From a bacterium (GTDB lineage Bacteria; Planctomycetota; Planctomycetia; Planctomycetales; Planctomycetaceae), in NCBI GenBank assembly GCA_016124895.1, contig WGMU01000019.1, forward strand, positions 186,001 to 250,000: 64,000 bases of DNA. The letters run 5' to 3'. Positions 1,310 to 59,292 of this stretch are shown in pieces. The position numbers were made by a program, and so were the translations under genes. The notes beneath the pieces are model-generated. The model searched no databases and was not told where the DNA came from. It worked only from the letters and a program-made list of their open reading frames with translations. Numbering within the stretch: position 1 is the first letter of the stretch; every line of letters begins with the position of its first letter.

Positions 1310-1438
1310 CTATCCGACTGCCTGGGGCAGCCCGCCGGTTTGCGTTTCCTTTGACCGCCATCGCTGATCATTGCCGGTCAGTTACTGTCGCATCGGCGAA
1401 CCCTTGCGTGACGTTGACACTTGGATTGCGTTCCAAAC

Positions 1439-3241
1439 ATGGACACACAGCTCATCCGCAACTTCTCGATCATTGCGCACATTGACCACGGCAAGAGCAC
1501 GCTGGCGGACCAGTTTCTGCTGCAGACCGGAGCAATTACGCAGCGCGAGTTCAAAGAGCAGATCCTCGACGACCTGGACGTCGAGCGGGAACGCGGCATT
1601 ACGGTCAAGGCCCGGACCGTCGCGATCTACTTCAAGCACGAAGGCAGGACGTACGAGCTGAACCTGATCGACACGCCGGGACACGTCGACTTTCACTATG
1701 AAGTTTCGCGCAGTCTGGCTGCGTGCGAAGGGGCTCTGCTGCTGGTCGACGCGTTTCAGGGCGTGCAGGCGCAAACGGTCGCGAACACGTACGCCGCCAT
1801 CGAAGCCGACCTCGAAATCATCCCGGTCATCAACAAGATCGACCTGCCGGTGACGCGCGTCGAAGAGGTGATGGAGGAAATCGAAACAGTCCTCGGGCTC
1901 GACGGTCTGAACGCCATCCCGGTCAGCGCGAAAACCGGGCTGCATGTCGATAACGTTCTGAAAGCAATCGTCGAGAAAGTGCCGCCACCGTCCGGCAAGC
2001 CAGACAACCCACTGCAGGCGCTGGTGTTTGACTCGAAGTACGACGATTACCGCGGCGTCATCACCTATCTGCGCGTCAAGGAAGGCACGGTCCGCAAGGG
2101 CCAGCAGATTCGCTACATGAAGGGCGGCACCGTTCACGAAGTTCTGGAACTCGGTCAGTTCCGCCCGCACATGAAACCCTGCAACGAACTCGGCCCCGGC
2201 CAGGTCGGCTACATGCTCTGCGGCATCAAGGAACTGAGCATGGTCCACGTTGGCGATACCGTCACCGATCGGACCAGGCCGGCGTCAAAGGCACTGCCCG
2301 GTTACGAGAAGCCACACCAGATGGTCTTCTGCGGGATGTACCCGATCGACGCGACGGACTTCGAGCGGCTGCGCGAAGAACTGCAGAAGATGTCGCTGAA
2401 CGATGCCAGCTTCTCGTTCGCGCCGGAAACCAGCGACGCACTCGGCTTCGGATTCCGCTGCGGCTTCCTCGGAATGCTGCACATGGAAATCATCCAGCAG
2501 CGACTGGAACGTGAAGCCGATGTCGACCTGATTCAAACCGCGCCAAACGTCACCTACGAACTGCTGCTGAAGACCGGCGAGGAGCAACTGATCGACAACC
2601 CGCAGGACGTTCCGGACTCAGGCCAGATTGAAGAGTTCCGCGAACCGATCGCCCGCGTGACGTTCATTGTCCCGTCGGAAAGCATCGGTGCGATTCTGAA
2701 GCTCAGCGAAGACCGCCGCGGAATCTACAAGGGCACCGAGTATCTCGGCCCGAACCGCGCGCAGATCACCTACGAACTGCCGCTGGCCGAAGTCATTTAC
2801 GACATGCACGACCGCATCAAAAGCGCGACGCGCGGCTACGGCACGATGGATTACGAAGTGATCGGCTTCCGCGATGCCGATCTCGTGAAGATGGACATTC
2901 TCGTGAAAGGCGTCCGTGTCGACGCACTCTCAACGATCGTGCATCGTTCGACCGCCGACCGACGCGGCCGGGCACTCGTCAAGAAGCTGAAAACCGAAAT
3001 CAGCAAGCACCAGTTCGAGATCGCTCTGCAGGCCGCGATCGGCACGCGTGTCATCGCCCGCGAAACAATCTCCGCCCTCCGCAAAAACGTCACCGCCAAG
3101 TGCTACGGTGGCGACATCACTCGCAAACGCAAGCTGCTGGAAAAGCAGAAAGAGGGTAAGAAGCGGATGAAGCAGTTCGGCCAGGTCGAAATCCCGCAGA
3201 AAGCCTTCCTGTCCGTGCTGGAAGCCGGCAAGGAAGAGTAG
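1439..3241 (+). CDS. lepA: elongation factor 4 (LepA), ribosomal GTPase
   Basis: LepA/EF4 is a translational GTPase that acts on the ribosome, with a reported role in back-translocation or ribosome biogenesis. All GTPase motifs are present: G1 AHIDHGKS, G2 region ERGITVKART, G3 DTPGHVDF and G4 NKIDLP. The EF-G-like domains follow, and the LepA-specific C-terminal domain ends in KKRMKQFGQVEIPQKAFLSVL. The ATG at 1439 (MDTQLIRNFSII) gives 600 residues, the usual family length; a TTG at 1421 in the same frame would only add six residues without a family counterpart. Confidence 0.97.
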   Translation: MDTQLIRNFSIIAHIDHGKSTLADQFLLQTGAITQREFKEQILDDLDVERERGITVKARTVAIYFKHEGRTYELNLIDTPGHVDFHYEVSRSLAACEGALLLVDAFQGVQAQTVANTYAAIEADLEIIPVINKIDLPVTRVEEVMEEIETVLGLDGLNAIPVSAKTGLHVDNVLKAIVEKVPPPSGKPDNPLQALVFDSKYDDYRGVITYLRVKEGTVRKGQQIRYMKGGTVHEVLELGQFRPHMKPCNELGPGQVGYMLCGIKELSMVHVGDTVTDRTRPASKALPGYEKPHQMVFCGMYPIDATDFERLREELQKMSLNDASFSFAPETSDALGFGFRCGFLGMLHMEIIQQRLEREADVDLIQTAPNVTYELLLKTGEEQLIDNPQDVPDSGQIEEFREPIARVTFIVPSESIGAILKLSEDRRGIYKGTEYLGPNRAQITYELPLAEVIYDMHDRIKSATRGYGTMDYEVIGFRDADLVKMDILVKGVRVDALSTIVHRSTADRRGRALVKKLKTEISKHQFEIALQAAIGTRVIARETISALRKNVTAKCYGGDITRKRKLLEKQKEGKKRMKQFGQVEIPQKAFLSVLEAGKEE

Positions 3242-3378
3242 ACGCATCCACTCGAACGTCCAGGCATGCCTCGCTCCTGCTCCTCAGCCCGGAAATCCGG
3301 CGGTTTCCATGACGATTCGTCATGCACTAAAACTCCGCGATCTGTCTGGCGTTCAATTTCCGACGCCGTGTCTGATTG

Positions 3379-3613
3379 CAGCGCAAAGTCGCTGAGACGC
3401 AGAGATCCGCTAAGGAACGTGTCCAAAACAACTTTCCGATTCCGGAGCATCCTGGATCAGCCGGCACGCGCTGGCGTCCGGTTCGTTCAGCTTCGAGCAG
3501 AACCGGACGCCAGCGCGTGCCGGCTGATTTCGGGACCTTGATACGAACTCGTTCCTGAGACACAGAGAGTCGCCAGGTCTTTGCGCTCCTTCGCGTCTCT
3601 GCGACTTTGCGCT
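3379..3613. repeat. nested palindromic intergenic cassette
   Basis: The 416-base gap between lepA and ileS holds no convincing gene but a nested palindrome. Outer arms at 3379-3399 and 3593-3613 are 21 nt with one mismatch and contain the word GCGCAAAGTCGC. Inside them lies a perfect 28-nt inverted repeat, 3456-3483 against 3501-3528, with a 17-nt loop; its arms carry ATCAGCCGGCACGCGCTGG. Transcribed, the inner repeat would form a very stable hairpin that could end lepA transcription or protect its 3' end. The nested form suggests one repeat inserted in another. Confidence 0.85.
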
Positions 3614-3657
3614 GCCATCAGCCTCCTACCAACCAACCAGAAACGATTCGCCTGACC

Positions 3658-7800
<4,143 letters not shown>

Positions 7801-31549: not shown

Positions 31550-31996
31550 GGCATGACCTTTCGTCAAGAAGCCATTCGGGAGCCCGGCTGTCTCGATGAC
31601 GTCGTTCAATCGAACGTTGCGTTCGACGCAGACGACGGCGTCACGAGATCCGTGGTTTTGCGTCCCCGCCTCACGACGGGTTTGCCGTTTCGAGGTCTCC
31701 TGAGTGTCTCAGCCTGCGACTGGAGAAAGCGATCGCGCGGGGAGAGTCGCTATTGGTCATGTCGTCCCCGAGTCGCCCGACTCCTGCGTCCGCCTGCGCT
31801 GAGTTCACATCCCTGCCGCGGCGTTTACCTCGCCCGCTGAGTTATCCGCTGCAGCGAAACTCTGCCACACGTGCGGCGCAGCGACGACGAAATCGCATGA
31901 CGAATAGCCGGCTGGCGTAAACGCGCAAGCTGCGACATGACAGTCCGTTGCGTCGTGTACTGGACGCGCGGTTAATCGACTGGGCCGACTTCAGAG
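31550..31996. other. intergenic region
   Basis: About 450 bases between the secreted hypothetical protein and the kinase gene, both on the minus strand. No gene, clear promoter or strong inverted repeat is seen. It separates the kinase from the secreted/TadG pair. Confidence 0.4.
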
Positions 31997-58951: not shown

Positions 58952-59053
58952 GACAGGACGCTCTGTGAGACAGGATGCAGTGCAGCGCCACTGATCGAGT
59001 GACTTTCTCTAAGTACCCGTCCCACGGATTTAAGGCCTGAATTCGAAGTCTCA

Positions 59054-59114
59054 CGCAAAGGCGCTAAGCCGCAAAGAGATCACGAGCATTTCTTTGCGGC
59101 TTAGCGCCTTTGCG
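59054..59114. repeat. palindromic intergenic repeat
   Basis: Perfect 24-nt arms (59054-59077 and 59091-59114) around a 13-nt loop; the arm reads CGCAAAGGCGCTAAGCCGCA. It lies in the 341-base gap after the SppA-type gene, which holds nothing else clear. It shares GCGC/CAAAG words with the outer arms of the 3379-3613 cassette and may belong to the same family. Confidence 0.85.
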
Positions 59115-59292
59115 CGAAATCAATATGTCTGTCGATTAACGGGCATTTATTCGTGGGACGCCTGCTAAGGAACCACCGCGAGCATCGTTGTTGTGGTCGG
59201 GCCGGGAAATCCTGCAACGCGCCGCTATCGCAAGGTCGAGTTGCCGCTCACAATCCCGGCAGACCTCAGCCAGGAATGAAGGACACGAGATC

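Follow-up and report, generated by a model that had tools for sequence, protein, structure and literature searches.

The palindromic structure between lepA and ileS in the window (the whole 64,000-nt stretch of DNA analysed here, from the draft genome G000 of 8,134,610 bases in 195 contigs, planctomycete-like to judge by the named records with which it has repeats in common) is best explained as three repeat families nested by insertion, with an ISAzo13-type miniature element (MITE) as the inserted unit, a reading to which we assign a probability of about 0.85. The preliminary description of the locus had recognised a nested palindrome made of two arm families, and this was confirmed: the inner arms (3456-3484 / 3500-3528) are 29 nt long and 100% complementary, the outer arms (3372-3414 / 3579-3621) are 43 nt long and 81% complementary, and the two sequences are unrelated. 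A third inverted pair, the terminal inverted repeats (TIRs) of the MITE (3414-3439 / 3530-3555), lies between both arm pairs, so the structure has three layers and not two. The features are as follows:

1421-3241, plus strand: lepA (elongation factor 4; TIGR01393, 907.9 bits against a cut-off of 533.9; start codon uncertain)
3378-3615: layer 1, outer hairpin repeat of the GCGCAAAG type, interrupted (widest arms 3372-3414 / 3579-3621)
3411-3413: left copy of the target site duplication (TSD), TAA, 3 bp
3414-3555: layer 2, non-coding ISAzo13-type MITE shell, 142 bp
3414-3439, plus strand: left TIR, 2 mismatches to the consensus
3456-3528: layer 3, REPIN-like core, two inverted REP-like arms (3456-3484 and 3500-3528) with a 15-nt loop
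3530-3555, minus strand: right TIR, 5 mismatches to the consensus
3556-3558: right copy of the TSD, TGA, one mismatch
3658-7800, plus strand: ileS (isoleucyl-tRNA synthetase; best hit TIGR00392, 585.3 bits, below the cut-off of 621.4)

The palindrome is intergenic, with the lepA stop (3241) upstream and the ileS start (3658, placed by aligning relatives) downstream, and lies in the short gap between the two genes, ending about 40 nt ahead of the ileS start codon. Matches within the window exceeded chance for both the 22-mer of the core (2 against 0.01 expected, with up to 3 mismatches) and an outer 23-mer (2 against 0.00). The segment 3370-3625 folded at -92.3 kcal/mol as DNA (z -13.9 against shuffles) and at -156.5 as RNA (z -13.2). 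The two TIRs of the window shell agree at only 18 of 26 positions whereas the inner arms are perfect, so that decay does not follow a simple order of age. A separate palindromic repeat (GGGTGCCACTGCTGGC...) was seen at 4446-4522, in frame within ileS, where the relatives at L049, L059 and L065 are about 41-42 residues shorter; the same hairpin is also the core of shells at C60 and C142 of G000.

The outer layer is a member of a hairpin family whose motif is GCGCAAAG-NCGC-NNAG and whose building blocks are GCGCAAAG-NCGC units. Its arms gave 146 matches in G000, compared with 2 for the reversed control, and a match was present in 21 of 118 same-class genomes (some of them single and possibly due to chance). 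G000 has many uninterrupted copies of the outer hairpin, examples of which were aligned, and a further uninterrupted hairpin resembling this family was noticed in the window itself at 59051-59117. When 3414-3555 and one TSD copy were removed in silico, the resulting sequence (ATCCGCTAAGACA) aligned over the junction with AACCGCGAAGACA and AATCGCGAAGACA, the intact outer copies L206 and L207, which can be regarded as a paralogous empty site for the window shell. Insertion into an existing palindrome, as had been proposed for this locus, is thereby upheld in one part, since the outer hairpin is intact elsewhere and restored on removal of the insert; it needs amending in the other, the mover being a 142-bp MITE that carries a palindrome rather than a palindrome alone. 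In none of the relatives examined do lepA and ileS lie side by side, and no orthologous empty site is therefore available at this position. The joined flanks of three other G000 shells were searched against the same-genus genome G001, which yielded one orthologous gap (between selB and a transporter gene, both named by inspection), one match to the left flank only, and none for the third locus. At the selB-transporter site G001 has no shell, but a different hairpin (GTTTGACCCGAAGCCGCAGGCGACGGCG; L389, about 1102-1246) stands there, so that the site is not cleanly empty. At the sequence level, mobility of the shells is supported by the TSDs and the paralogous empty site.

In the sequence of events that we propose, a GCGCAAAG-type hairpin would have been present first between lepA and ileS, and a 142-bp MITE with ISAzo13-type ends would then have entered the middle of it, duplicating 3 bp. 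The MITE would have brought the REPIN-like hairpin along as its core, the hairpin having been part of the MITE family before the insertion between lepA and ileS. The whole shell, with the hairpin as its cargo, would be moved in trans by a DDE transposase of the ISAzo13 family that acts on the 26-bp TIRs.

The shell TIRs are 26 bp long and have the sequence GGAACGYGTCCGAAACAACTTCCCGA. In the alignment of the inner-repeat copies of G000, conservation extends well past the perfect arms, to the ends GGAACG...CGTTCC, and the terminal 18-mer of the TIR had 106 matches in this genome compared with 12 for the reversed pattern (up to 3 mismatches). The 26-mer was found in 19 of 397 same-class genomes, the reversed control being zero among the matches listed. 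Scanning of 132 selected loci revealed 46 shells with paired TIRs 52-420 bp apart in six genomes (25 in G000, 4 in G007, 3 in G011, 6 in G222, 6 in G345 and 2 in G385) and none with the reversed control; since the loci were mostly picked for carrying a repeat (duplicates and unrelated loci being left out), the set of 46 is a catalogue and not a genome rate. The shells of G007, G222, G345 and G385 were found by the TIR search alone, those of G011 through a match to a query from the window. Identical 3-bp flanks occurred in 13 of the 46 shells, compared with 4.1 expected from mismatched pairs, whereas flank lengths of 1, 2 and 4-9 showed no excess of identity in the same set. The commonest target is TNA. 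A perfect 3-bp flank match is missing from 33 shells, and the TSD of the window shell is likewise imperfect (TAA/TGA).

The ends of the shell lead to a family of complete insertion sequences. In G187 two matching TIRs, 1,310 bp apart and with CTG on both sides, flank a gene for a transposase of PF07592 (E 3.9e-106) that also matches the NCBIfam model ISAzo13 (NF033519, 388.8 bits against a cut-off of 200). A second ISAzo13 element of 1,310 bp, whose TIRs have 4 mismatches each and which is flanked by the TSD TCT/TCT, is found in G222, which additionally carries six shells of 220-227 bp. Because the same TIRs bound these 1,310-bp elements in two same-class genomes, we classify the 142-bp unit, by its TIR sequence, as a probable ISAzo13-derived MITE. 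Like MITEs in general, the window shell is a short non-coding unit (142 bp) with terminal inverted repeats, is multicopy, shows target duplication (at the level of the family) and shares its ends with full insertion sequences of related genomes, here the autonomous relatives in G187 and G222. It differs from MITEs in general in that most of its interior is taken up by a complete hairpin repeat and not by a deleted transposase gene, and in that the hairpin varies under the same TIR. From the ISAzo13 family itself the shells differ in being free of genes, and G000 yielded no ISAzo13 element bounded by such TIRs: none of its three PF07592 matches is near a TIR (one is at a contig edge). Mobilisation of the shells in trans by an ISAzo13 transposase would fit the shared ends, and a DDE transposase of this type is the likely mover, rather than a REP-associated tyrosine transposase. 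The ISAzo13 element of G187 (L300, 1568-2784) has two overlapping reading frames beside a run rich in A, where a frameshift may occur.

One type of shell encloses different cores. Among the 25 shells of G000, 11 have a REPIN-like core, 7 a GCGCAAAG hairpin and 7 another core or none, and elsewhere the cores are GTAACCCG hairpins in G011, GTCATTCCCGCG in G345, GACCTCCCCC in G222 and several kinds in G007. Cores of at least 60 nt fold well (z of -3 or below in 38 of 43, compared with 11 of 85 flanking controls), and the same was true of 19 of the 20 cores outside G000. The arm of the G345 core hairpin occurs 66 times (control 0); since only 10 of the 66 fall within five shells, most copies of this hairpin lie outside the catalogued shells. 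Judged by eye, the spacers of the G000 core classes differ on both sides of the core, which speaks more for separate captures than for hairpins inserting into a single shell interior. The shells appear to have acquired hairpin repeats of their local genomes several times over. A weak resemblance of spacers between core classes was also noticed by eye. We make no claim of a core swap in situ within one ancestral shell, the spacers (again by eye) differing by class. The cores might instead have been gained by hairpin repeats that inserted into a pre-existing empty shell, and not by shells capturing a hairpin together with its flanks. Two short shells without a hairpin exist (77 and 80 bp), and REPINs are considered mobile themselves (PMC3116915), but insertion of this kind predicts a single shared shell interior, in contrast to the class-specific spacers, and in the REPIN shells only 0-1 nt separate the TIR from the REP on one side, so that we regard it as unlikely. 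Returning to capture by the shells, ISAzo13-type TIR shells could be a general vehicle for hairpins in Planctomycetia that captures palindromes common in the host repeatedly, spreads them and enters other palindromes; we put this forward tentatively, as possible more than as probable. If so, the hairpin core may have been selected as an aid to transposition, for example by bringing both ends together.

The core of the window shell is REPIN-like in that two inverted REP sequences form one hairpin, each REP-like arm being by inspection a small palindrome itself (stem ACGC/GCGT in one type, GGGC/GCCC in the other). The exact 23-mer AGCCGGCACGCGCTAGCGTCCGG of the core occurs in many Planctomycetota records among the matches listed. 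At 80 loci, 45 of 103 core occurrences are paired with an inverted arm of the same type within 60 nt (up to 6 mismatches); for many of the rest the partner is an arm of another type, GAACCGTGGGCTAGCGCCCAGCGGCTGAT. In 17 symmetric G000 copies (arm identity to the consensus 92.8%), 8 changes were matched on both arms compared with 3.0 by permutation (copy L016 being omitted because of an indel), a number reached in 2 of 2000 permutations, with most matched changes at one position. By inspection the arms start with ATCAGCC and no GTAG (or related) tetranucleotide foot was seen. G000 contains RAYT-like genes (two above the NF047646 cut-off, one below), but the expected REP-associated transposase matching the repeat did not emerge: no core REP, with up to 8 of 27 mismatches allowed, was found within about 1.5 kb of any of the 8 Y1 transposase loci (the flank scan covered both repeats, and one of the loci is cut by a contig edge). 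With neither a GTAG foot nor a RAYT gene flanked by the core, we call it REPIN-like and not a member of the GTAG REPs. That a REP-associated tyrosine transposase inserted the palindrome alone, the TIR-like ends being incidental, is in our view very improbable; the RAYT-like genes, and the occurrence of such arms as doublets without an ISAzo13-type shell in other planctomycetes, which suits the nested reading as well, would suit it, but the TIR ends are common to G000 shells with different cores, the 3-bp TSD signal lies outside these TIRs, and the Y1 loci lack the core within about 1.5 kb.

Still slightly less probable is a mere terminator or leader hairpin of lepA-ileS, kept by selection and with no history of insertion. 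The predicted RNA hairpin is very stable and stands just ahead of ileS, but no T-run follows the stem (by inspection), and every layer is a dispersed repeat family, the outer one intact elsewhere, for which reason we rejected it as a full explanation. Further copies of each arm had been suggested as the test, their lack pointing to a single terminator; this does not hold, because both arm families are multicopy in G000 (the copy counts being lower bounds, with 40 candidates scored for each). A terminator or leader effect of the insert, just upstream of ileS, is possible, and the insert may influence the expression of lepA or ileS. An assembly or chance artefact is hardly credible: repeats in a draft of this kind are prone to misassembly, but the locus lies inside a contig of 316,847 bases, the boundaries of both families are consistent from copy to copy and hardly any matches are expected by chance.

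Among known systems, REPINs and REP sequences (PMC3116915) share with the core the two inverted palindromic REP-like arms that form one hairpin, the dispersal and the two related partner types; the core differs in lacking the GTAG foot and a RAYT gene flanked by it, and many G000 copies lie inside a MITE shell. GTAG REPs reach the Planctomycetes according to PMC3733652, where P. putida and P. fluorescens are also recorded as having hundreds of structures in which a degenerate GTAG-1 unit is joined to an unrelated stem-loop. Of the precedents we have seen, these REP and stem-loop structures of Pseudomonas are the nearest: in the double inverted repeats by some tyrosine transposase genes, too, two unrelated palindromes are joined and dispersed, but there tyrosine transposases are present and the REP is in the terminal repeats, whereas here the hairpin sits within a shell of the DDE type. 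PMC6006769 describes Y1 proteins of planctomycetes whose flanking structures are atypical. In QMITE2 of Coxiella burnetii (PMC10969869) a MITE is likewise linked to a GTAG repetitive extragenic palindrome, but there a single MITE goes with a single REP and serves IS1111 as a target, in contrast to one type of TIR shell that holds many different hairpin cores. A literature search, with subscription papers mostly outside it, returned no description of ISAzo13 MITEs or of REPIN-carrying MITE shells in planctomycetes. A DDE-transposon shell wrapping a variety of host hairpins would give palindromic repeats a second way to spread, one that bears on REP-like palindromes for which no matching RAYT gene is found, and shell-borne hairpins would help to explain the nested palindromes of planctomycetes.

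Nesting is not confined to this shell. Another outer inverted repeat (at least 14 of 16 positions) encloses 12 of the 98 REPIN-like pairs taken from named planctomycete records, compared with 1 of 288 mismatched pairings, so that nesting is a recurrent arrangement; the outer repeats around the 12 pairs differ in sequence. At L292 (G013) and L123 a REPIN-like doublet is enclosed by another inverted repeat, CTAGTGCTTTGTCA, which suggests a second kind of shell, and at L120 and L122 (Planctomycetes bacterium CA13) REPIN-like doublets form near-regular arrays of about 120 bp. Elsewhere in the window, a c-di-GMP-I riboswitch was detected at 31575-31696 on the minus strand (55.3 bits).
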